64,000 nucleotides of DNA from Flavobacteriaceae bacterium (GTDB lineage: Bacteria; Bacteroidota; Bacteroidia; Flavobacteriales; Flavobacteriaceae), in contig JALSLI010000197.1 of assembly GCA_026988395.1 (NCBI GenBank), positions 1-64,000 of the forward strand, written 5' to 3'. The first letter of the stretch is position 1; each line of letters starts with the position of its first letter. A program made the position numbers and the translations under genes. Under the pieces are notes generated by a model, which worked only from the letters and a program-made list of their open reading frames with translations, was not told where the DNA came from and did no database searches. Shown piece by piece: positions 3,534 through 51,069 of the stretch.

Positions 3534-4638
3534 TTAAATTTATTATTTTTAGAGCATTCTGTTTATTATCAAATAGTTTTAGTGCTTTTTTGCGTTTTTC
3601 AATTTCATCTTTACCGTATTCATTTTCAAAACACCATCTAATTTTTTCTTTAAATTCATTGTTACAATCGGCTATTTCACATAAATTTTCAAGACCTGTA
3701 TCTTCTACCATAGCATTATTTACTACACAAAACCGACTTTGAAAAAGAGCATAAATAAGTTTTAGTTTAATACCTGTTTTTTGAAATGTTGGCAAAACAT
3801 TTACTTGTGTTTCTTTAAACAATTCTTCTAATTTATTAGATGAATCCAGTTTAACAAATGAGATATTTTTATAAAGTTGTATTTCATTTTTTATTTCAGG
3901 GTGTGCATAGCTGCCGGCAACAACCAAAGGATATTCTAAATCTTTAAAAACCTTAAATAAATATTTGCATGCTTTTAAATTATCTGCTACTCTTAGATCA
4001 CCATGATACATCGCAAATTTTCCTTTTCCTGATAAATTTTTGACCTCATTATTTTTATGAAAAACAGGGATGTATTTTGCTTTATCTCCAAATTTATTTT
4101 TAAAATAACGTTGTTCGTAAGGAGATATGGTTAAAATATAGGTTGCTTTTTGTAAAATTTTCTCGTAAGATTTTAGTTTTTTAGCCTCTTGTTTAAAAAA
4201 AGATTTTCTAGGTAATTTACTTTCACTTTTAGCTAATCCTAAATAATATTTGTGCTCAATATTATGTGTTCTTACCAGTATTATCCTATTTTTAAAATCA
4301 TAATCATTTAAAGGATAAGTAGTATGTAAGCCTTCAAACAAAATAGGATGTTGGTCTTTTAGCAAGTTTTTTATAAGGTTAGAATTGCTTCTGGATTTTA
4401 CAATAAAAGGCTTGGAAGACAATAAATTTAAAGGTGATTTTGAACGTTTGTAGTAAAAAATTTCTTCACAATATTTTTCCAGTTCTTTAGATTTTCCTTT
4501 ACCGTATTCAAAAGTGTGTAATACAATATTTAATCCTAATTTATGTAGTACTTTTATTTTAAAAAAAACATCTATTACTCCGCCATAATTTGGCGGAAAT
4601 GGAACGTCAAACGAAACAATATGTATGGTTTTTTTCAA
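3520..4638 (-). CDS. Glycosyltransferase, GT4-like
   Basis: N-terminal SFDVPFPPNYGGVIDVFFKI; YHGDLRVADNLKACKYLFKVF; VNVLPTFQKTGIKLKLIYAL. Confidence 0.75.
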   Translation of the reverse strand: MKKTIHIVSFDVPFPPNYGGVIDVFFKIKVLHKLGLNIVLHTFEYGKGKSKELEKYCEEIFYYKRSKSPLNLLSSKPFIVKSRSNSNLIKNLLKDQHPILFEGLHTTYPLNDYDFKNRIILVRTHNIEHKYYLGLAKSESKLPRKSFFKQEAKKLKSYEKILQKATYILTISPYEQRYFKNKFGDKAKYIPVFHKNNEVKNLSGKGKFAMYHGDLRVADNLKACKYLFKVFKDLEYPLVVAGSYAHPEIKNEIQLYKNISFVKLDSSNKLEELFKETQVNVLPTFQKTGIKLKLIYALFQSRFCVVNNAMVEDTGLENLCEIADCNNEFKEKIRWCFENEYGKDEIEKRKKALKLFDNKQNALKIINLIANK

Positions 4639-4670
4639 AAAATAGTTTTAATGGAACAAAAGTAAATAAA

Positions 4671-4697
4671 AAAAGGTTGCCAATTAGCAACCCTTTT
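4671..4697 (-). terminator. Terminator downstream of M13 peptidase gene
   Basis: ggttgc-caatta-gcaacc; on the minus strand followed by TTTTTTT. Confidence 0.75.
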
Positions 4698-4714
4698 AGA
4701 AATACGTTTAATTT

Positions 4715-6772
4715 TTACCAAATCCTAACACGATCTTCAGGTTTTAAATACATTTTATCGCCTTCCTTTACTTGAAATGCCTTATAAAAAGCATCTACAT
4801 TTTTTAGAGGCATATATGCTCGGTACATTCCCGGAGCATGTGGATTAGTTTTAATTAAATTTCGTAAAGCATCTTCTCTCATTTTGGTTCTCCATACAGT
4901 TGCCCAAGACATAAAGAAGCGTTGATCAGGAGTAAAACCGTCAATTTTACCCGGTTTTTTCGTGTTTTTATAATTTAATTGTAATGCATCATATGCTACG
5001 TTTACGCCTCCTAAATCACCAATATTTTCACCTAAATTAAATTTACCATTTAGAAAAACGCCGGGCAATGCTTCTATTTGATTAAATTGTTCCTCTAGTT
5101 TTTTACCTCTTTCGGCAAAATTCTTTTCATCTTCTTTTGTCCACCAATTATTTAGATTTCCATCGCCGTCATATCTTGCTCCGGAATCATCAAAACTATG
5201 GGATATTTCGTGACCGATAACTGCTCCTATTCCGCCGTAATTCACGGCATCGTCTGCTTTATAATTATAAAAAGGAGGTTGTAAAATTGCTGCCGGAAAT
5301 ACAATTTCATTATTTGGAGGATTAAAATAAGCATTTACCGTTTGTGGCGACATATGCCATTCGGTTTTGTCAACAGGTTTTCCTATTTTAGCCATATTTT
5401 CATCAAAACGAAATTTAGAAACCGCTTTTCTATTTTCATAATATGAATTTTCTTTATTTACTTTTAATTTTGAATAGTCTTTCCATTTATCCGGATAAGC
5501 AATTTTAACCGTCATTTTATGCAGCTTTGCAATGGCATTTTCTTTTGTTTTATCACTCATCCATTCAACTTTTTTAATACGTTGTTCAAAAGCTGTTTGA
5601 ATGTTTTTAATCATTTTTTCCGCTTTTGCTTTAGCTTGGGGTGGAAATTTTTTGGCTACATATAATTTTCCTAAAGCTTCACCAACAGAGCCGTTAACAA
5701 CACTTAAACCTCTTTCTTTAATAGGCCTTTGTTTTTTAGAACCTCTTAGCGTTTTGCTGTAAAACTCCCAATTTGCTTTATCAATATCTTGGGTTAAAGA
5801 TCCTGCCGCACCATCGATTATATTCCATTTTAAGTAATCTTTAATGGTATTGATGTCTGTATTGTTTAAAACAGAATTTAACGATTTAAAATATTTTGGG
5901 TCTGTAACAATTAATGTATCAATGTTTTTTAGACCCAAATCTTTAAAATATTTTTTCATATCCAAAACCGGTGTCATTTTAGCAATTTCTTCAATGGATC
6001 TAGGGTTATATCGTTTTCGATCATCTCGATTTTCTTCTTTTGTTTTTCTGGGTATTGCTAATGCAGTTTCAAATGCAAGGATTTTTTTAGCCTTTTCTTC
6101 CGGATTTTTTTCATTGATAAATGTTAACATTCTAGCGATATGTTCTTCGTATTTTTTTAATTTTTCTTTTGTATCAGCATCTTTATCAACATAATAATCG
6201 CGACTTAAGCCCAAACCGGCAGGAAATAAAAAGACGGTGTTTTCATTAGATTTTTTAGGATGTGAACCTACATACAAGCCAAAAAAACCGGGACCTCCGT
6301 AAGGTTGTGTTTTGGTCATAAAATTTTGTACATCTTTTAAATCTTTAATTCCATCCACTTTTTTTAATAGCGGAATAATTGGTTGGATACCATTTTTATT
6401 TCTTGTAGCCAAATCCGTATAAGATTGAAAAAGATATACTGCTTTTTGTTGGTCTGTAATTTCGTTTTGTTTAGCATCTTTTAATGCGTTATTTTTCATT
6501 TCATTTTCTAATATTGCCAACACATCATCATCGGTTTTTTTACGAAGTTCGTTAAAACTTCCCCAAGAGGTTCGGTCGGCCGGAATTTCGGTTCTCTTTA
6601 ACCAATTGCCGTTTACATATTTAAAGAAATCATCTTTCGGACTAACTAAGGTGTCGATATTTTCTAATTCGATTCCCGGTGTTTTTGCTATTTCTCTTTT
6701 TTGTTTTTCCGCTTTACAAGAAAAAAGAGCAATTACAATACTCATTGCAATAATTGTTTTTGTTGTTTTCAT
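4715..6772 (-). CDS. M13 family metallopeptidase, lipoprotein
   Basis: HEISHSFDDSGARYD (HExxH), lipobox-like IALFSC; ATG at 6772 preferred over 6814. Confidence 0.95.
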   Translation of the reverse strand: MKTTKTIIAMSIVIALFSCKAEKQKREIAKTPGIELENIDTLVSPKDDFFKYVNGNWLKRTEIPADRTSWGSFNELRKKTDDDVLAILENEMKNNALKDAKQNEITDQQKAVYLFQSYTDLATRNKNGIQPIIPLLKKVDGIKDLKDVQNFMTKTQPYGGPGFFGLYVGSHPKKSNENTVFLFPAGLGLSRDYYVDKDADTKEKLKKYEEHIARMLTFINEKNPEEKAKKILAFETALAIPRKTKEENRDDRKRYNPRSIEEIAKMTPVLDMKKYFKDLGLKNIDTLIVTDPKYFKSLNSVLNNTDINTIKDYLKWNIIDGAAGSLTQDIDKANWEFYSKTLRGSKKQRPIKERGLSVVNGSVGEALGKLYVAKKFPPQAKAKAEKMIKNIQTAFEQRIKKVEWMSDKTKENAIAKLHKMTVKIAYPDKWKDYSKLKVNKENSYYENRKAVSKFRFDENMAKIGKPVDKTEWHMSPQTVNAYFNPPNNEIVFPAAILQPPFYNYKADDAVNYGGIGAVIGHEISHSFDDSGARYDGDGNLNNWWTKEDEKNFAERGKKLEEQFNQIEALPGVFLNGKFNLGENIGDLGGVNVAYDALQLNYKNTKKPGKIDGFTPDQRFFMSWATVWRTKMREDALRNLIKTNPHAPGMYRAYMPLKNVDAFYKAFQVKEGDKMYLKPEDRVRIW

Positions 6773-6804
6773 TTTGTTGATATTTATATAGTGTATTTTT
6801 ATTT

Positions 6805-9030
6805 TTAGAACCAAAATCCGATATTAATATGCCAATAATTTTGATTGTTATCAGGTGACCAAGCATATTTAAGCTCCAAAGGGCCAATAAACGAATCGTA
6901 ACCATAACCAATGGCATATCCGGTTTTTAAATTGTCGAATGCGGTACCGTTTGAAAAAATTTTGCTATTAAGACCTGCGGCATTTCCGATAAGGTTTAAA
7001 TAGTGTTTTTTTAAAAATTCATATTGTATTTTAGCTTGTCCTTTTATAAATGCTTTGTTTTGAAGTGATGCAAATTCATAACCGTAAAAAGGTTTGTAAT
7101 TATTTACTAGATTCTGATTATTTCCACCAAGCGAATAAATAAACGAAGGTGAACTATTGCCAAAAACCGAACCTAAATCCGTTTGTAATTGAAGCGTAAC
7201 ATTTTTGTGGAATGTTTGTGCATAACCTAATTTTGCCTTGATAATAGAAAAGGTTTCCAACTCAACATTGTTATAATTTGATGAAGCAAAGTAAATATCA
7301 TAACTACCATTAAAATACCAACCTTTTTTGGTAAAATATTTTCGATCATAAGTGTCTAAAATAACATTTCCGAAAACGCTAAAATAATTTCGATTATCAA
7401 AAAATATTTTCTGATTAATTGCATTATTTGTAAAAATTCGTTCGTATTTATGTTTAGCTCCTATTTTTAAGGCGAATTTTTCAGCAAATTTAGATAAAAG
7501 ATAAAATTGGTTGGTTAAGTCATTATATTTTATACTTTGCGGAGTATTAAAGATTGTAGTAGTACTGTTTTTATCGATAATATAATTTTTTTTAAACGAA
7601 GTATATTTAGAATTTACGCCAATTTGCCAATGGTAGCCATTATCTACCAAATAATCTACATTAAACCGGATATTGTCTCCAATAATAAAATCTGCCGAAA
7701 AAATGTCGTTATTGGTTAAAGCATGTTTTGATGTAAAATTGATAAGTACACCGGTTTTAAACAAATCATCATAATGAGCACTTAATTGTAGGCTATTGGA
7801 TATTTCTGATTCTTTTACATTAAAATCAATATCCGTTTTGTTGTTTTTTAAAAAAGTAAATTTATAATCCACACTTTTAAAATTTCCGGTAGCCATTAAA
7901 CCATTAATTGAGGTGTTAAATTGCTTGTATGTTAAAGAGTCATTTTCTTTAAGATTTAATTTAGAAAGAATGTAATTACGTGTATAATTTTTAGAACCGT
8001 GAATCTTAATTTTATTAATTTTAATGTATTCTTTTTCGTGTAATTTTACTCTTTTTTGTTGCTGTACCGGTTTTTTTTGTTGTTGAATTGCGATTGCTTC
8101 GAGGAAATCTGCATCTTCTAAGGCTATTTTTTCTCCTAAATCTATTAATTCTTTAGTTTTATCAAACGATATAACCGAATATCCTTTTATATTTGGATGC
8201 ATATAAATATCAGTATTGTTTTTATTTTGAACATCTTCATCATACATCTGAAAACTAATAATTTGCATAATCATTTTAGGAGCAGAATCCAAAGCTTGGC
8301 GTTTTTCCAATTTATCTTGCACATCGACACCTATGATAACATCTACGTCCTTGTTTTTCATAATATCGATAGGAAAATTATCTACAATTCCGCCATCTAC
8401 AAGTAATTTTCCGTCAATTTCAACAGGTTCCAGTAGTGTAGGGAAAGCACCGCTTGCTTTAACGGCTAATGGTAAAAAACCTTTTTCCATTACTACTTTG
8501 TCTCCATTTTCAATATCTGTTGCAACGCAATAAAACGGTATGGGTAATTTTTTAAAATTAGAAACATTATGCACGTGTTTGGTTAGTTTGGTCATTTCGT
8601 TTAATATATTTTGCCCTTTTGATAAAGCAACAGGCAAACCAACTTTCCAATTTTTTATTGGTAAGGTAAGTGCGTATTTTTCGGAATTTTGTTTTTGATA
8701 AAACGAATATTTTTCTCTTGGAATATTGTCTTGAATCAATTCATCAAAATTGTATGAATTAATAATCGAGTCGATTTGTTTGGCATTATATCCTGATGCA
8801 TATAAACCGCCAATCATTGCTCCGGCACTGGTTCCGCCAATGTAATCCACACGAACACCTAGACTGTCTAAAACTTTTAAAACACCAATATGCGCAAATC
8901 CTTTTGCTCCTCCGCCTGATAAAACCAATCCTACTTTTAAATCTTTACGATAGTCTTTTGACTCTTGTTTTTCTTGTGAAAAAACAAAACTTGAAAAAAT
9001 TAGAAAAAGGAGAATCCACGTGTTTTTCAT
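6805..9030 (-). CDS. Patatin-like phospholipase with POTRA/BamA-like C-terminal beta-barrel
   Basis: LSGGGAKGFAHIGVL, GGTSAGAMIGG, VDGGIVDNFP; C-terminal barrel ending in WHINIGFWF. Confidence 0.92.
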   Translation of the reverse strand: MKNTWILLFLIFSSFVFSQEKQESKDYRKDLKVGLVLSGGGAKGFAHIGVLKVLDSLGVRVDYIGGTSAGAMIGGLYASGYNAKQIDSIINSYNFDELIQDNIPREKYSFYQKQNSEKYALTLPIKNWKVGLPVALSKGQNILNEMTKLTKHVHNVSNFKKLPIPFYCVATDIENGDKVVMEKGFLPLAVKASGAFPTLLEPVEIDGKLLVDGGIVDNFPIDIMKNKDVDVIIGVDVQDKLEKRQALDSAPKMIMQIISFQMYDEDVQNKNNTDIYMHPNIKGYSVISFDKTKELIDLGEKIALEDADFLEAIAIQQQKKPVQQQKRVKLHEKEYIKINKIKIHGSKNYTRNYILSKLNLKENDSLTYKQFNTSINGLMATGNFKSVDYKFTFLKNNKTDIDFNVKESEISNSLQLSAHYDDLFKTGVLINFTSKHALTNNDIFSADFIIGDNIRFNVDYLVDNGYHWQIGVNSKYTSFKKNYIIDKNSTTTIFNTPQSIKYNDLTNQFYLLSKFAEKFALKIGAKHKYERIFTNNAINQKIFFDNRNYFSVFGNVILDTYDRKYFTKKGWYFNGSYDIYFASSNYNNVELETFSIIKAKLGYAQTFHKNVTLQLQTDLGSVFGNSSPSFIYSLGGNNQNLVNNYKPFYGYEFASLQNKAFIKGQAKIQYEFLKKHYLNLIGNAAGLNSKIFSNGTAFDNLKTGYAIGYGYDSFIGPLELKYAWSPDNNQNYWHINIGFWF

Positions 9031-9033
9031 CTT

Positions 9034-10860
9034 TTATCGAATAGAAGTAGTACTTAGACCAAAAGTATTAACTTTTTTATTAAAATGCAAAAAAATTTTT
9101 TCCGCTTTATCCTTGCCAATTATTTCTGTTAGACGTTCTAGACTTGCTTTTGTTACACGTTTAACAGATTTTAATTCTTTTAAAAGTTTTTCTTTTGTTT
9201 TATCACCAATTCCATGTATTAAATCGAGTTCTGATGTGATGGCAGATTTACTGCGTTTATTGCGATGATGTGTAATACCAAAACGGTGTGCTTCGTCTCG
9301 TAAACGTTGAATGATTTTTAGGGTTTCCGATTTTTTATCGAGATATAACGGAATGGGATCTTCCGGATAAAAAAGTTCTTCTAATCGTTTCGCAATTCCT
9401 ATTATGGCAACCTTTCGGCGTAAGCCTAGTTTCTCTAAACTTTTAACGGCAGAGGATAATTGCCCTTTTCCTCCATCAATAATAATGAGTTGAGGTAGCG
9501 TTTGTTTTTCATCTAATAATCGTTTGTATCTGCGGTAAACGACTTCTTCCATAGAAGCAAAGTCATTTGGACCTTCTACGGTTTTTATATTAAAATGTCT
9601 GTAATCTTTTTTGCTTGGTTTGCCATTTTTAAACACCACGCAAGCTGCAACCGGATTTGTACCTTGAATATTAGAATTATCAAAACACTCGATATGTCGC
9701 GGTTCTACCAACAAGTGCAAATCTTTTTTCATTTGCGACATAATGCGATTTACATGTCGTTCAGGATCGGTAATTTTTACCTGCTTAAACTGTTCTTGAC
9801 GGAAGTATTTTGCATTTCGTAAAGAGAGTTCTACAATCCGTTTTTTATCACCCGTTTTTGGAATGGTTACTTTTATGGTTTCGCCTAAATCTACTTTAAA
9901 CGGTACGTAAATTTCTTTGGTTATCGAGTTAAATCGTTGACGGATTTCAACGATAAACAATTCTAATATTTCTTTATCGGTTTCGGCTAATTTTTTTTTG
10001 ATTTCGGTAGTGTGTGATTGAATAATATTGCCGTTTACAATTTTTAAAAAATTCGCGTAAGCAAAATTTTCGTCAGATATAATACTAAACACATCTACAT
10101 TAGAAATACTAGGGTTTACAATGGTAGATTTTGCTTGGTAATTTTGTAATAAATCTAATTTTTCTTTTATTTTTTGTGCTTCTTCAAACTCCATTTTTTC
10201 AGCAAATTCATGCATCATTTCTTTAAAACGAGCTAAGGATTGTGCAAAATTTCCTTTAATAATATGTTTTATTGCTTTAATATCTTGGTTGTAATCGCTT
10301 TCGGTTTGCAGTCCTTCGCAAGCTCCTTTACAGTTTTTTATATGGTATTCTAAACACACTTTGTGTTTTTTATTTTGAATGTTTTCTACCGATAAATTAA
10401 AGTTGCAAGTACGTAACGGATACAATTCTTTTATTAAAGAGAGTAATGCTCGTGCTGTTCTCACCGAAGTATAAGGACCAAAATATTCCGAACCGTCTTT
10501 TATAACACGTCTGGTTAAAAACACACGAGGAAATCGCTCTTTTTTAATACAAATAAACGGATAAGATTTGTCGTCTTTAAGTAAAATGTTATATCGAGGT
10601 TGGTATTTTTTTATAAGATTATTTTCTAATAATAAAGCATCCGTTTCAGTTTCAACTACAATATGTTCAATTTTTACGATTTTCTGAACAAGAATACGGG
10701 TTTTTCCGTTTTCATGATTTTTAGTAAAATAAGAACTTACTCTTTTTTTTAAGTTTTTGGCTTTCCCAACGTATATTACAGTGTCCTTTTTATCGTAATA
10801 CAAGTAAACGCCCGCACTATCAGGTAATGTTTTTACTTGTAATGATAAATTATTGTCCAA
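9034..10860 (-). CDS. uvrC: Excinuclease ABC subunit C
   Basis: GIY-YIG N-terminus LPDSAGVYLYYDKKDTVIYVGKAKNLKKRVSSYF, UVR motif, C-terminal HhH domain. Confidence 0.97.
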   Translation of the reverse strand: MDNNLSLQVKTLPDSAGVYLYYDKKDTVIYVGKAKNLKKRVSSYFTKNHENGKTRILVQKIVKIEHIVVETETDALLLENNLIKKYQPRYNILLKDDKSYPFICIKKERFPRVFLTRRVIKDGSEYFGPYTSVRTARALLSLIKELYPLRTCNFNLSVENIQNKKHKVCLEYHIKNCKGACEGLQTESDYNQDIKAIKHIIKGNFAQSLARFKEMMHEFAEKMEFEEAQKIKEKLDLLQNYQAKSTIVNPSISNVDVFSIISDENFAYANFLKIVNGNIIQSHTTEIKKKLAETDKEILELFIVEIRQRFNSITKEIYVPFKVDLGETIKVTIPKTGDKKRIVELSLRNAKYFRQEQFKQVKITDPERHVNRIMSQMKKDLHLLVEPRHIECFDNSNIQGTNPVAACVVFKNGKPSKKDYRHFNIKTVEGPNDFASMEEVVYRRYKRLLDEKQTLPQLIIIDGGKGQLSSAVKSLEKLGLRRKVAIIGIAKRLEELFYPEDPIPLYLDKKSETLKIIQRLRDEAHRFGITHHRNKRSKSAITSELDLIHGIGDKTKEKLLKELKSVKRVTKASLERLTEIIGKDKAEKIFLHFNKKVNTFGLSTTSIR

Positions 10861-11496: not shown

Positions 11497-14400
11497 ATGG
11501 AACAAATCCAACCTTATAAACCAAAAAATAAAATCCGTATTGTAACAGCAGCTTCTCTTTTTGACGGACACGATGCTGCCATAAATATTATGCGTAGAAT
11601 CATTCAATCTACCGGAGTTGAGGTCATCCATTTAGGGCACGACAGAAGTGTAGAAGAAGTGGTTAATACCGCAATCCAAGAAGATGCAAATGCGATTGCA
11701 ATGACTTCATATCAAGGCGGACATAATGAGTATTTTAAGTATATGTACGATTTATTGCAGGAAAAAGGAGCAAATCACATTAAGATTTTTGGTGGTGGTG
11801 GAGGTGTTATTTTACCTTCCGAAATCAAAGACTTAATGGCATACGGTATTACGCGTATTTATTCGCCTGATGACGGACGAAAAATGGGCTTGCAAGGAAT
11901 GATTAACGATATGATTCAAAAATGCGATTTTAATGTTGCCGAATTAAATATTCCTAACCAAAAGAATATTAAAAATAAAGATGTTAACGCTATTGCGAGG
12001 TATATTTCGCTTGCAGAAAATAAACCTGAAGAGTTCGAAAAAGTTTTTATTCCTCAAAAGGAAAATACCATTCCGGTTTTAGGTATTACCGGAACCGGAG
12101 GAGCCGGAAAATCATCGTTGGTAGATGAATTGGTAAGACGTTTTTTAACCGATTTCCCTAATAAAGAAATTGCCATTGTATCGGTAGATCCTTCCAAAAG
12201 AAAAACCGGAGGTGCTTTACTTGGCGATCGTATTCGTATGAATGCCATAAAAAACGATCGTGTTTATATGCGTTCCTTGGCAACTAGACAATCTAATTTG
12301 GCACTTTCCAAACACGTGGCAAGTGCAATTGAAGTTCTAAAAAAAGCAAACTATGATTTGATAATTTTAGAAACTTCCGGAATCGGTCAAAGTGACACCG
12401 AAATTACAGAGCATTCCGACTTATCGCTCTATGTAATGACGCCGGAATACGGAGCAGCAACACAATTAGAAAAAATAGATATGCTCGATTTTGCCGATTT
12501 AATTGCTCTAAATAAATTTGATAAACGAGGTGCTTTAGATGCTTTGCGAGATGTTAAAAAACAATATATGCGAAACCATAATTTATGGGATACACCTATG
12601 GATAAAATGCCGGTTTACGGTACCATTGCCTCGCAATTTAACGATCCCGGAATGAATAGTTTATACCGAGAAGTAATTAATACGATAAACAGTAAATTTC
12701 CGGATAAAAAAATGGAAAGCAGTTTTGAAATCACTTCCGAAATGAGTGAAAAACAATTCATTATTCCGCCAAACAGAACGCGTTACCTTTCTGAAATAAC
12801 CGAAATAAATCGTAAATATTTTCAAGATGCTAAAAAAGAAAAAGAAATAGCTCAAAGATTATTCGGAATTTTTAAAACCATTCTTTCGGCAGCAAATATA
12901 GATACCAATAAACACGAAGAATCTTCTTTTTTAACAGAGAACGGTTTAAATGAAGAAGAAATTATTCGCAATAGCGAAAAGTCCGAAAATCAAGACTTTT
13001 TAAACTTACTTTTTAAAGAGTTTGCAAGAGTGAAAATGGATTTAAATCCGCATCATTGGCAAACTATTTTTACTTGGAAAGAAAAAGTACAACGCTACAA
13101 AAATGAATACTATACTTTTAAAGTCCGTGATAAAGAAATTAAAATTAAAACGCATACCGAATCACTTTCGCACTTACAAATACCTAAAATTTCGTTACCT
13201 AAATATGAGGCTTGGGGTGATATTTTATATTGGACTTTAACCGAGAATGTTCCCGGAGAATTTCCATATGCAGCAGGAATTTATCCCTTTAAACGAACGG
13301 GAGAAGATCCAACCAGAATGTTTGCCGGAGAAGGAGGTCCGGAACGTACCAATCGCCGTTTTCACTATGTGAGTTTAGGAATGCCGGCAAAACGGCTTTC
13401 CACAGCATTTGATAGTGTTACGCTTTATGGAAATGATCCGGATTTAAGACCGGATATTTATGGAAAAATCGGTAATGCCGGTGTGTCGATTTGTTGTTTG
13501 GATGATGCTAAAAAATTATATTCCGGTTTTGAATTGACCAATCCAATGACTTCGGTTTCTATGACCATTAACGGTCCGGCTCCAATGATGCTTGGTTTTT
13601 TTATGAATGCTGCAATCGATCAAGAATGTGAAAAATATATTATAGAAAACGGTTTGGAAGATGAAGTAGAAGCAAAAATTAAAGAAATTTATAAGAAAAA
13701 AGGCGTTAAACGACCACAATATCAAGGCGAACTTCCAAAAGGGAATAACGGTTTAGGTTTAATGCTTTTAGGCGTTACCGGAGATGAGGTACTGCCAAAT
13801 GACGTCTATCAAAAAATTAAAACAGAAACTATAGCCAAAGTGCGTGGTACTGTTCAGGCAGATATTTTAAAAGAAGATCAAGCACAAAACACCTGTATTT
13901 TTTCAACAGAATTTGCCTTGCGATTAATGGGTGATGTGCAAGAATATTTTATCGAAAATAATGTGCGTAATTTTTATTCGGTTTCTATTTCCGGTTATCA
14001 TATTGCCGAAGCAGGTGCAAATCCGATTTCACAACTGGCGTTTACTTTGTCTAACGGATTTACTTACGTAGAATATTATTTATCCAGAGGAATGGATATT
14101 AATAAATTTGGTCCAAATCTATCCTTCTTTTTCAGTAATGGAATTGATCCCGAATATTCGGTTATCGGTCGTGTTGCCAGACGTATTTGGGCAAAAGCCA
14201 TGAAAAATAAATATGGAGCCAATGCCAGAGCTCAAATGTTAAAATATCATATTCAAACATCCGGACGTTCATTGCACGCACAAGAAATTGATTTTAATGA
14301 TATTCGTACTACTTTACAAGCTCTTTATGCAATTTACGATAATTGCAACTCGCTACACACCAATGCGTATGACGAAGCTATTACTACGCCAACCGAAGAG

Positions 14401-14943
14401 AGTGTGCGTAGAGCAATGGCAATTCAGTTAATTATTAATAAAGAATTGGGTTTGGCTAAAAATGAAAATCCGATTCAAGGAGCTTTTATTATTGAAGAAT
14501 TAACCGATTTGGTAGAGGAAGCCATTTATTTGGAATTTGACCGTTTAACGGAAAGAGGAGGCGTTTTAGGAGCAATGGAAACCATGTATCAACGAAGTAA
14601 AATACAAGAAGAAAGCTTGTATTATGAAACATTAAAACACACAGGAGAGTTCCCGATTATCGGAGTAAATACCTTTTTAAGTTCGAAAGGTTCTCCAACC
14701 GAAATACCAAAAGAAGTAATCCGTGCAACCGAAGAAGAAAAACAATATCAAATAGAAGTAATTAAAAATTTACATAAAGGAAACAAAGAAAAAACCGAAA
14801 AACAACTCAAATTATTACAAGAAAAAGCTGTAAACAACGAAAATATATTCGCTCAATTAATGGAAGCAACTAAAGTGTGTTCTATTGGTCAAATAACAGA
14901 TGCGTTGTTTAAAGTAGGCGGGCAATACCGCAGAAATATGTGA
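11497..14943 (+). CDS. icmF: Fused isobutyryl/methylmalonyl-CoA mutase (B12-binding domain, MeaB-like GTPase, mutase)
   Basis: B12 domain [19 protein letters not shown]-loop [20 protein letters not shown]; mutase [35 protein letters not shown]-terminal GGQYRRNM. Confidence 0.93.
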
Positions 14944-46230: not shown

Positions 46231-48621
46231 TTATTTTTTTGGTCTTTTGTTTGTTGGAGGACCCATAGATTTCCGCTCTTTAATCTTTTTGAGCATTTCT
46301 TGGTTTGAGGGAAGTCTTCCTTTTCGTTTTATATTTTCTTTTCCTGTATTAGCTTGTTCTTTTTTTTGTTTTTTTTCTTTCTTTTTCTTTTTTCCGGTTA
46401 AAAAGTCAATAATTTCTTGTGCTCTTTTTGCTTCTACAGTGTTTGGGTAGTTGTTTACAATAAAATTAAGAGATTTAAGATATTCCTTTTTTCCTAATGT
46501 TTTTGCAATTGCTTGTGCTTTTAAGAGCTCAAATTTTGCTTTTATTGGGGATTCTTCTAAACTTACCAAGTTGTTATTGCAATCTTCTATTACTTGTTGG
46601 TATTCTTTATTTTGATATCGTTCATATATCTTTTTATATTTATTTTCAGGTGAATCTGCATCATCTGATGTATCCTTCTTTTCAGGGTGTAAAATTAATT
46701 GTGCATATTTAGAATCCGGATATTCTGTAGTAATTTTATCTTTGTAAAATGTACTTTTAGCATCATTACCTATTTGTGCATATGCTTTGTATAAATGATA
46801 GTAGGCAGGTAATGTTAGATTAGAATCTTTTAAGTTGAACTGTAATAGCTTTTCCAATTGTGTTATGGCTAGCTTTGGTTTTTTAAACTGTTCTTTATAT
46901 AAAACACCTAAATTATAATAGGATTTATTTCTAATTTTGTTAATGCTGTCTATTTTAGTTTGTTCACTTGGTATTTTATCTAAATAAGTTGCTAATTCAT
47001 ATTTTTTTGTGTCTTTTTCTTCGTTATTTTCGGCTTCTTTTTCTTTAATTTCTTCTTCATTTGCTGTGGTTTTATCTGATAATCGCCAATTATCTTCTAA
47101 AGGTCTGTTTCCCCAAGTTTTTTTAAATTCTTCTTCTCCAAAACTTACGGTTTGCGTATTGTAGAAATAAAACTTGCTTCCTTTTTTTAAAGCGTTACCG
47201 GAATTTAAACTTCCAAACCCACTAAAATTTTTTCCTTTTTTGTTTTTAGCTATAATTTCGGCTTCTTTATCTTTTTGCTTTAATTTTTTAATATAATCTT
47301 TAAAATAAGCTTCTCTTTCCGGAATGCTCATTGCTATCAAATTAAGAATACTATCGTTTTGTTTGATATCGTTTTCTAAGCGAATAACGTAATCCAAGCT
47401 TTTGCGAAGACGTTTTATTTTTCTAAAGCGTTTTGATTTTGGAAGTATAGAGAGGTTAATCACACTGTCGTAATACGCACCTGATGTTACAAATTTTGCT
47501 TTATCAAAATAAATATCTCCCAAAGCTTCGTATGCTTTATCTTTTTGGACGTCTTTTGCTAATTTTGTTCTTAATGATTTTTTAAAATACGCAATTGCTT
47601 GATTTGTGTGATTGTTGACAGATTCAATTTTACCGATTTGATAAAAGATACCATCTAAATATGGTCTATTATCTCGATTTTTGGTTAGTTTTTTAAGATT
47701 TTCCAATAAAGCATCTGTATTATCGGTTGCTTTGTTATAATTTTTTGCTCTTTCCAGTTGTGCATAAATACGAAAACGATAAGGTGCTTTTTTATTGTTT
47801 TTTATTTTATCAAAAGCCATATTAGAGGAATCGATTTTTCCTTGATTTCGGAATAATTGTCCTAAAATAAAAGCATTTCTCGTTGCTTGGTTGTAGTTTT
47901 TATGCGTGTATTTTAAGGCTTGGTTTAAGTGATTAATCACTTGTTGTGTGCTGTCCATTTGCATATAAGCCATTGCCAAAGCGGTATGAGCATCATCTTT
48001 AATATTGTCTTCTAAATCTTTATTCTTGGTTAAATATTTGTCTAATTTATAGATGGCATCTTCTTCTTGTCCAAGTCGAATGAGTGATTTGGCTTCCCAA
48101 ACTCTGGCTGTTTGAAACAAATCGGATTTAGGATATTTTTTAATCATGTATTTAAAGGTTTCCAGAGCAGGAACAAAACGTTGGTCGTAATATCTAGACT
48201 TCCCTAATAAAAAATATGCATCATCAATTTGTTTGTTTTTTTCTTTTGTTCCGATATTTATCGAATGTTTTTGGATGGCTTTTACAGCTTTTTCTTCAGC
48301 CCGTTCAAAACCTTGTGCATTGGATTTAGAACTTGATTCAACCGAAAGTTTAGAACCCGGAGTTTTTGGTAAGGCCAAGACATCTTTTTCTTTAATTTTT
48401 AATGGTTCTATTGGTAAAATTTTGCTGAAATCATCTTCATAAGCATCGTCTATTTCTTTTTTCGCTTTGTCAAATGCCAAATTACCGTTGTACAAAACGT
48501 TGTATTTTGCAGCAGTGGAGTGTAGAGTTCTACTTACAATAGTATCTTTATTGGTAGAACAACTCCAGAAAACCAAAGCAAAAGCGGTTAGTATCGAATA
48601 TAGAATTTTTATGCCTTTCAA
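46231..48621 (-). CDS. porW: Type IX secretion system lipoprotein PorW/SprE (TPR-rich)
   Basis: Lipobox FWSCSTNKDTIVSRTLHSTAAKYNVLYNGNLAFDKAKKEID, TPR repeats, basic Pro-rich C-terminus. Confidence 0.9.
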   Translation of the reverse strand: MKGIKILYSILTAFALVFWSCSTNKDTIVSRTLHSTAAKYNVLYNGNLAFDKAKKEIDDAYEDDFSKILPIEPLKIKEKDVLALPKTPGSKLSVESSSKSNAQGFERAEEKAVKAIQKHSINIGTKEKNKQIDDAYFLLGKSRYYDQRFVPALETFKYMIKKYPKSDLFQTARVWEAKSLIRLGQEEDAIYKLDKYLTKNKDLEDNIKDDAHTALAMAYMQMDSTQQVINHLNQALKYTHKNYNQATRNAFILGQLFRNQGKIDSSNMAFDKIKNNKKAPYRFRIYAQLERAKNYNKATDNTDALLENLKKLTKNRDNRPYLDGIFYQIGKIESVNNHTNQAIAYFKKSLRTKLAKDVQKDKAYEALGDIYFDKAKFVTSGAYYDSVINLSILPKSKRFRKIKRLRKSLDYVIRLENDIKQNDSILNLIAMSIPEREAYFKDYIKKLKQKDKEAEIIAKNKKGKNFSGFGSLNSGNALKKGSKFYFYNTQTVSFGEEEFKKTWGNRPLEDNWRLSDKTTANEEEIKEKEAENNEEKDTKKYELATYLDKIPSEQTKIDSINKIRNKSYYNLGVLYKEQFKKPKLAITQLEKLLQFNLKDSNLTLPAYYHLYKAYAQIGNDAKSTFYKDKITTEYPDSKYAQLILHPEKKDTSDDADSPENKYKKIYERYQNKEYQQVIEDCNNNLVSLEESPIKAKFELLKAQAIAKTLGKKEYLKSLNFIVNNYPNTVEAKRAQEIIDFLTGKKKKKEKKQKKEQANTGKENIKRKGRLPSNQEMLKKIKERKSMGPPTNKRPKK

Positions 48622-48724: not shown

Positions 48725-49714
48725 TTATCGTTTTACCAGTTTAAAAGTATTGGTTTTACTTTCGGTTTTAACTCGTAAAAAATAAACACCTTTCATTAAA
48801 TTGTCGGTATTTAAAACAGTACTGTTTCTTACAACCTGTAACCGTTTCCCGTTAAGGGAAATTAATTCCAATGAGATTATTTTTTGCTTACTTGATACTT
48901 TAACAATATCTTTTACAGGATTAGGATAAATGGAAATCCGAGTTAAATACTCATCATTAATATTGGTAGTTGTGCTATTGTGAATTACGCCAACAGCATC
49001 TAGGTCAAATCCGCCGGAACTGAAAGCCGTAGGATAAGGATCGTTTACGATATTATTTTGATTGTCATATGTTGCAAACGAAGGATTAACAGTACCAACA
49101 ACATCAATTAATTTAATATAATTGATGTTGTTTAAGTTTACTGTTGTGCCTTGAATAAGGTTGTTTAAATCGGATAAATCAAAAGGTGTTCCGTAATTAG
49201 CAATGTATTTTCCTGCTAAATCATGTATGTTTCGTGCATTTATAAATCCGAAACTGTCTATTTGTGTATTGCTTGGCATTTCGGAAATTGCCGGAAATCG
49301 TACATATTCAACGCCATCGGTACTGACTTCAACAAAAGCAAATTCTAAAAATGCCATTTCGGAGCCGTCTTCTTGTAAAAAGCCGTTTTCAAAAATAGCA
49401 AAATCTGCTCCTTGTCCGTTGGTAATAGGATGGTTAAAAGTTAGAATTGCCATTCCACCATCACCTAAACTCACAACATTATTATTTGGTTGTCCAACAG
49501 CGTTGTTTTCTGCACCGTAATCTGCAAAACCGTTATCCGGAAAGGCAATATCGAGATAACCTCTTGTAACGCTAACCGAATTTGCCCAATCAATAAAACG
49601 CGTATCGTCTTTATAAATTGCCGTAGTACCGGAAATGCCAACTTGAGGCGGAAAACTTTGAGCTTGTAAAAACAAGACAAATAATAAAAATATGCTAGTG
49701 AGTTTTGTTTTCAA
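48725..49714 (-). CDS. T9SS type A sorting domain-containing secreted protein
   Basis: Signal peptide; FAIFENGFLQEDGSEMAFLEFAFVEVSTDGVEYVRFPA; C-terminal ISIYPNPVKDIVKV...MKGVYFLRVKTESKTNTFKLVKR. Confidence 0.9.
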   Translation of the reverse strand: MKTKLTSIFLLFVLFLQAQSFPPQVGISGTTAIYKDDTRFIDWANSVSVTRGYLDIAFPDNGFADYGAENNAVGQPNNNVVSLGDGGMAILTFNHPITNGQGADFAIFENGFLQEDGSEMAFLEFAFVEVSTDGVEYVRFPAISEMPSNTQIDSFGFINARNIHDLAGKYIANYGTPFDLSDLNNLIQGTTVNLNNINYIKLIDVVGTVNPSFATYDNQNNIVNDPYPTAFSSGGFDLDAVGVIHNSTTTNINDEYLTRISIYPNPVKDIVKVSSKQKIISLELISLNGKRLQVVRNSTVLNTDNLMKGVYFLRVKTESKTNTFKLVKR

Positions 49715-49718
49715 AATC

Positions 49719-50693
49719 TTATTTTTTGATGATTTTTTTAATAGCTATTTTATTATCTTGTTGAATTTTAATAAAATAAACACCGGTTGCAAAATTGCTT
49801 AAATCCATTTGTTCTGTTTCATTGCAATTGGTATTGGAATAGATTTGTTTTCCGTTAAGGTCATTAATTGTAATGGAAGCATCTTTACAATTTTGAATGT
49901 TTAATACATCGTTTACCGGATTTGGATACATATTAATATTGGAAATTAAATCATTTTCGGTAGTGGAAAGTGTGGTAGAATATACTAAATCATCCATTGC
50001 AAAATAATAAGGAGTGTATGAATCGCTTGCACTCATTTCAAATTTTAGACCTTTTACATTGCCAAGGGAAGATAAATCTACGTTAGTCCAGTCACCAACA
50101 ATAATTGCATTTCCGTTAGTAAAATCTGCTAAATAGAAATCAATTGAATTTCCCAGTGTATCATCTCCTGAAACACCAAGCGTTCCGTTGTCATCTAAAA
50201 CGGCTGTAATGGTTAATTTAAAATAATCTCCTGATTGAAAATCGTGACCGGTTCCATCAGATCCATCCATAAATTTGTACGCCCAAACACTATTGGTTAT
50301 TTGTACGGATTGTACATTTACCGTTTGGTCAAAAGTCATGGCATCACCACTGTACGTATAAACAAATGCGTAGTTTGAAGAACCGTTTGCTCCGCCGCCA
50401 TTTGATGAATAAGCAGAATAATTTGTATAGCTTGCCGTGTTTAGATCGGTTTGGTTGGAATAGGCAAAACCATTCCAGTAATCATAAACACCTGTATTAG
50501 TGTAATTTACGTAAAAATTAGCCATTTGGTCTTCGTAAGAAATAATTTGACCGGAACCATCGGTTGCAGTATATTCGGTTTCGCCGTTAAAATAACCGGA
50601 ATTAGGAACAGTTAAGCCCTCAAAAGTAACGGTAGTTTGTGCAAAAATAAAATTTGCGATAAAATAGGTAAATAAAAGTAGTTGTTTTTTCAT
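49719..50693 (-). CDS. DUF4465-like, T9SS type A sorting domain-containing secreted protein
   Basis: TFEGLTVPNSGYFNG...YDYWNGFAYSNQTDLNTASYTNYSAYS; C-terminal NMYPNPVNDVLNI...FATGVYFIKIQQDNKIAIKKIIKK. Confidence 0.88.
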   Translation of the reverse strand: MKKQLLLFTYFIANFIFAQTTVTFEGLTVPNSGYFNGETEYTATDGSGQIISYEDQMANFYVNYTNTGVYDYWNGFAYSNQTDLNTASYTNYSAYSSNGGGANGSSNYAFVYTYSGDAMTFDQTVNVQSVQITNSVWAYKFMDGSDGTGHDFQSGDYFKLTITAVLDDNGTLGVSGDDTLGNSIDFYLADFTNGNAIIVGDWTNVDLSSLGNVKGLKFEMSASDSYTPYYFAMDDLVYSTTLSTTENDLISNINMYPNPVNDVLNIQNCKDASITINDLNGKQIYSNTNCNETEQMDLSNFATGVYFIKIQQDNKIAIKKIIKK

Positions 50694-50814
50694 GATAATA
50701 AATTTGTTAATTAATAATTTATTCCAAAAACAACCGGAAAAATAGTATAGATGATTATATGCAAAGGCATATTTTCACCCATTGCTTTTATCCCGAAAGC
50801 TGTTGGATGTTTTT

Positions 50815-50985
50815 AGAAAAGGCAGGTATTCTGACTTACTCTTTTACTTTAAACGCCTTCCCGTTTTATGCAAACAGTGGCAAAATGTTTAAAGCTTTTT
50901 AGAGATTACAGCAGCGGGAACTGTTGCCGATTTTCACGGCATTCCCTTTTAAACGATTTTACTCGTACCTTAATCTGTTACAAAT
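50815..50985 (-). promoter_or_regulatory. Cobalamin (B12) riboswitch
   Basis: Minus strand: AAAAGGGAATGCCGTGAAAATCGGCAACAGTTCCCGCTGCTGTAA...GCCACTG...CGGGAAGGCG...GTAAGTCAGAATACCTGCC; matches the conserved cobalamin riboswitch core. Confidence 0.93.
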
Positions 50986-51069
50986 TTACATATAAATTTG
51001 GATAAAATGCACAAAAAAATGCCGATCTTAAAATCGGCACTTTTATAAATAATTTTATGTTGTTTAAAA

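Follow-up and report, generated by a model that had tools for sequence, protein, structure and literature searches.

A probable riboswitch-controlled gene pair for vitamin B12 capture, with type IX sorting tails, in a Flavobacteriaceae genome

Described B12-capture proteins and the layout of the locus

Competition for vitamin B12 shapes many microbial communities, and the capture proteins known so far come mostly from gut Bacteroides. The closest described arrangement is the btuK-btuH-btuB-btuGH-btuJ operon of B. thetaiotaomicron, in which BtuH-type and BtuJ-type surface proteins are produced together under a riboswitch. BtuJ1 of this organism binds B12 with sub-nanomolar affinity (PMC13398666, PMC12751083), and BtuJ1 and BtuJ2 belong to the DUF4465 family (PF14717, IPR027828), eight of eight diverse members of which bound B12 when tested (PMC13398666). 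The T9SS-type C-terminal sorting domain IPR026444 is found on 229 of 824 DUF4465 members (PMC12751083). Both the B12 binding of DUF4465, known since work of 2025-2026, and its T9SS tails are therefore already published. The BtuH proteins are represented by BtuH1, BtuH2 (7BIZ) and the BtuH half of BtuGH (8BLW); in BtuH2, Asn399 and Phe401 contact the nucleotide loop and the lower ligand (PMC8941943).

The window analysed here is a stretch of 64,000 nt from contig JALSLI010000197.1, and the host genome is 84% complete. Like the B. thetaiotaomicron operon, it combines a riboswitch with genes for a BtuH-like and a BtuJ-type protein, but in the host these surface-protein genes are separate from btuB-btuG, which lies on another contig. 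The features used below are:

11497-14943, plus strand: IcmF-type fused isobutyryl-CoA mutase, B12-dependent (NF045497, 1752.7 bits)
46231-48621, minus strand: PorW/SprE, a T9SS component (733 bits vs 250)
48725..49714, minus strand: gene B, 329 aa, BtuH-like secreted protein (from its tail, riboswitch linkage and a PDB profile search)
49719..50693, minus strand: gene A, 324 aa, DUF4465 (BtuJ-type) protein (PF14717, PDB matches, TIGR04183)
50804..50987, minus strand: cobalamin riboswitch aptamer (RF00174, full-length covariance-model match)
50981..50988, minus strand: promoter-like box TAAATTTG, fitting TAnnTTTG
51013..51039, minus strand: terminator-like hairpin TGCCGATTTTAAGATCGGCA followed by TTTTTTT, 3' of ahcY (read from the sequence)

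The RF00174 model matched the leader end to end (model positions 1-189, window 50987-50804 on the minus strand) with 108.5 bits and an E-value of 3e-26, the gathering score being 31.5. This is the element that the preliminary description had placed at 50815-50985, and comparison with the Rfam model thus bears out its cobalamin assignment. RF00174 has no other match anywhere in the host genome, which is 84% complete. Shuffled versions of the leader fold worse (z -4.7). Family membership predicts that the element binds cobamides and represses the genes downstream; inspection of the expression platform showed neither a clear terminator nor a clear sequestering hairpin.

The hairpin at 51013..51039, which a palindrome scan listed for the plus strand only, sits between the upstream ahcY and the riboswitch unit. 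Five genomes of the genus share the bases T, A, T, T and G of the promoter-like box TAAATTTG without variation, and the box fits TAnnTTTG, the -7 promoter motif of Bacteroidota. Together, the hairpin after ahcY and the putative promoter suggest that the leader starts its own transcript. From the end of the aptamer to the start of gene A there are 110 bases, and gene B, on the same strand, begins only 4 bases beyond the stop of gene A.

Gene A and the sorting tails

Gene A matches PF14717 with 117 bits (gathering score 25; E 1.6e-33), so that the earlier call of a DUF4465-like protein can be made without the qualifier. Its closest solved structures are 9hmu (D5EK51, E 1e-13) and 9fct (BtuJ1, E 1e-11) in the PDB, both of them DUF4465 proteins crystallised with B12 (residue data in PMC12751083). 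The TP-Y motif of the HI loop reads YTPYYF in gene A, Tyr230 being the counterpart of BtuJ1 Tyr245, and its Thr, Pro and Tyr are invariant in our alignment of the family (A3). Alignment to 9fct shows that the equivalents of BtuJ1 Tyr97, Thr242 and Tyr245 are retained (residues from PMC12751083), while Trp78 is replaced by Tyr, Tyr146 by Trp and Asn241 by Tyr. The change at the DE-loop Tyr146 is an exchange of one aromatic residue for another and leaves the Pfam membership unaffected. Given the PF14717 match and the published binding data, gene A adds a member to a family known to bind B12, and its protein would, by extrapolation from that family, bind B12 as well. This half of the pair is already known in kind. 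It resembles BtuJ1 and BtuJ2 in sequence, in the TP-Y motif and in riboswitch control; however, those two are lipoproteins encoded in operons with transporter genes, whereas gene A carries a T9SS tail and has gene B as its sole partner.

The N-terminus of gene A is signal-like, and its type A T9SS tail covers residues 255-322; in gene B, the tail covers residues 262-326 and follows a core at residues 18-250. The preliminary description had noted both tails, and both exceed the curated cut-offs: TIGR04183 scores 54.7 bits for gene A and 46.1 for gene B (cut-off 23), PF18962 62.2 and 43.2 (cut-off 27). Of the secretion machinery, PorW/SprE is present in the host genome, encoded immediately after gene B in the same orientation. 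This adjacency is probably accidental, since PorW/SprE is missing from the corresponding place in the sister genome G002 (L016).

Gene B, its family and its relation to BtuH

Pfam matched the tail of gene B alone and no domain in its core; the cores of 44 relatives were likewise unmatched (0/44). A single-sequence query with gene B found three loci in the genome contigs. With a family profile, relatives were detected in 55 of 396 Bacteroidota genomes and in 40 of 392 sampled Planctomycetota genomes, and none in the viral contigs searched. To score linkage, positions were compared, and a gene B locus was counted as linked when it lay on the same strand as an RF00174 match and at most 6.5 kb downstream of it. 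This applied to 31 of 47 loci in Bacteroidota (0.07 expected at random) and to 23 of 27 in Planctomycetota (0.03 expected), the 27 being the stronger matches of that search. Through shared ancestry these loci are not independent, but they span two phyla and many families.

The neighbours of gene B relatives include BtuB-like TonB-dependent transporters, DUF5074/BtuG-like propellers and DUF4465 genes; at one locus (L015) the order is riboswitch, BtuB-like gene, DUF4465 gene, gene B, DUF5074 (BtuG-like) gene, next gene. In many Planctomycetota, gene B comes first after the riboswitch, and no BtuB- or BtuG-like neighbour was detected in the stretch read. A T9SS-type tail was found by a local profile on 31 of the 47 members from the Bacteroidota search, and a few members resemble lipoproteins.

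Gene B and a DUF4465 gene share a riboswitch in the window and in the genomes G002 and G005, and also in G048 and G050, where transporter genes stand alongside. Among Planctomycetota, six genomes (G452, G840, G619, G579, G509 and G683) likewise have the pair behind a single riboswitch, in both gene orders, and several of the proteins there end in PEP-CTERM or dockerin sequences instead of T9SS tails. Parts of the pair locus are also present in G003 and G001, split by contig ends. The recurrence of the pair with altered order and altered sorting signals points to a common function. One Planctomycetota frame (L128, 6701-8857) contains gene B and DUF4465 sequences in a single reading frame. We set it aside as evidence of a fusion, since it has a sorting signal in its interior and a further signal-like stretch, so that a lost stop codon or an assembly error is possible.

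To compare gene B with known structures, 44 relatives were aligned (A4; the window's positions 48968-49663 and loci L005-L089), leaving out, as BtuH members, three lipoproteins at the edge of the family. The one of these that was tested (L086) matched BtuH2 (7BIZ) with an E-value of 6e-45 and BtuGH (8BLW) with 9e-70. An earlier profile of eight gene B sequences had found nothing significant in the PDB. When searched against 177,635 PDB sequences, the A4 profile returned exactly two entries at E<=10, namely 8BLW (8.8e-7) and 7BIZ (0.006). Alignment to BtuH with hhalign gave a probability of 91 for the close tier of the family and 95 for the distant tier, and profile-profile comparison joined the two tiers with an E-value of 1.5e-26.

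Common to the gene B family and BtuH is a core of the form SLG-GG...DF...ENxF. The equivalents of BtuH2 Asn399 and Phe401 (numbering checked) are Asn110 and Phe112 of gene B, which are invariant in A4 as part of ENxF. An equivalent of Gln333 appears as GQ in the distant tier only and is missing from the window protein. For the corrin contacts His476, Tyr510, Trp511 and Trp577 no counterpart was seen, and these positions fall outside the significant alignment. With two contacts conserved and the corrin contacts unalignable, we grade gene B as BtuH-like, a designation that the evidence supports, and not as a certified BtuH. From this sequence kinship, its protein may be expected to bind B12. Compared with BtuH, the family is remotely similar, shorter and without PKD domains, and it carries a T9SS or PEP-CTERM tail in place of the lipid anchor.

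An AlphaFold model of the gene B core, made from a four-sequence alignment, was too poor for use as evidence (mean pLDDT 48.7, pTM 0.54). Foldseek gave no match to this model at E<=0.001; the weak matches were to carbohydrate-binding-like sandwiches, and BtuH was absent among the top 50.

The only NCBIfam family touched by the gene B core is NF033170, the Leptospira LIC_13355 lipoproteins. The match of the window protein is partial (29 bits against a cut-off of 120), and 35 of the 44 relatives match at E<=0.001, at best with 2.6e-13. These matches suggest that the LIC_13355 family may share the BtuH-like core. LIC_13355 has been studied as a binder of host components, and B12 is unmentioned in the text of the paper (PMC11891782); these lipoproteins would merit a fresh look.

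Uptake genes and the function of the pair

Scanning the window with local profiles revealed no BtuB-, BtuG- or BtuF-like ORF. Elsewhere in the host genome, on contig C131, a BtuB-like transporter gene is followed by a BtuG-like gene (L105, 6262-9145), and the transporter is 44% identical to the riboswitch-linked BtuB-like protein of G005. The term "secretion-only module" used in the preliminary description thus fits the locus, in that no transporter was found in the window, but not the organism. RF00174 did not match at this host btuB-btuG pair, although a riboswitch precedes the same pair in the sisters G002, G005 and G004 (L090, L091 and L092). A riboswitch-linked btuB, for which the preliminary description had proposed a genome-wide check, is thus present in these relatives and absent at the host pair, and control of uptake seems to differ among close relatives.

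CbiC, a marker of corrin synthesis, was absent from the six genomes of the genus that were searched, an absence weakened by the incomplete assemblies; it fits scavenging. PF02965 (MetH) had no match in the 84%-complete host genome and one in the sister G004.

Taken together, we consider it highly probable that the two genes form an operon for the capture of vitamin B12 (cobamide). When cobamide is plentiful, the riboswitch would switch the operon off, and under scarcity both proteins would be produced. They would be exported by Sec and then by the type IX secretion system, and might be kept on the outer surface, bound to vesicles or released. Outside the cell, the BtuJ-type and BtuH-like proteins would bind cobamides and deliver them to the BtuB-BtuG transporter of the outer membrane, whose genes lie at another place in the genome; imported B12 could then serve enzymes such as the IcmF encoded in the window. 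B12 binding by these two proteins, the direction of regulation and the hand-over to BtuB-BtuG are the steps that we infer. The earlier proposal of T9SS-delivered, cobamide-binding or scavenging proteins is supported, with binding itself a prediction. For gene A, the prediction draws on what has been published for DUF4465 proteins (PMC12751083, PMC13398666); in the case of gene B, its basis is riboswitch linkage in two phyla, the btuB and btuG neighbours and distant relatedness to the domain with which BtuH binds B12. The proposal did not mention that B12 binding by DUF4465 was already established.

It is conceivable, though we think it unlikely, that gene B acts in a B12 operon without binding the vitamin, as a scaffold, a docking partner of BtuB/BtuG or of gene A, or a vesicle or surface factor comparable to BtuL of B. 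thetaiotaomicron. Both BtuL and BtuK2 are indeed encoded in B12 operons without binding the vitamin (PMC12751083), and the missing counterparts of the corrin-contacting residues of BtuH2 would agree with such a role. However, the core that gene B conserves corresponds to the part of BtuH that grips the nucleotide loop, and in many Planctomycetota gene B directly follows the riboswitch, with no BtuB/BtuG-like neighbour detected in the stretch read. Far less credible is that the proteins bind some other ligand, for example a glycan, and are linked to a riboswitch by mere chance in the host genome. The resemblance of the weak gene B model to carbohydrate-binding sandwich domains could be cited here, but it is no argument for a glycan, since the domain of BtuH is likewise similar, by DALI, to one associated with carbohydrate lyases (PMC8941943). 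The published binding by DUF4465 proteins also speaks against this reading, and we set both the glycan and the accident aside because riboswitch linkage recurs far above chance in two phyla.

Returning to B12 capture by both proteins, we favour, with somewhat less assurance than for the operon itself, a broader reading. Gene B would found a large unnamed family of extracellular cobamide-binding proteins, distantly related to BtuH, present in Bacteroidota and Planctomycetota and perhaps in Leptospira (LIC_13355), delivered by each host's own sorting system and forming with DUF4465 a stand-alone, riboswitch-controlled capture pair apart from the transporter. In the literature searched, whose coverage is incomplete, we found no description of the link between the gene B family and cobalamin riboswitches or of its kinship with BtuH, nor of a transporter-less DUF4465-gene B unit in two phyla with differing sorting systems. 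Such a reading would suggest a probable function for a widespread family that has no Pfam entry, and would mean that B12 is captured at the surface in Planctomycetota too, and by proteins delivered other than as lipoproteins. The pair is directly testable, as it offers two soluble domains for a colour-based binding assay.

Two further loci were noted among the relatives. At L096 (G381, 4473-9272), a cobalamin riboswitch is followed by three tandem BtuH-like lipoproteins and then a DUF4465 lipoprotein, an arrangement that resembles B. thetaiotaomicron operon 1. At L088 (8717-10990), the DUF5074 (BtuG-type) propeller of a B12 locus carries a T9SS tail, and thus BtuG-like proteins, too, appear to occur in secreted forms.
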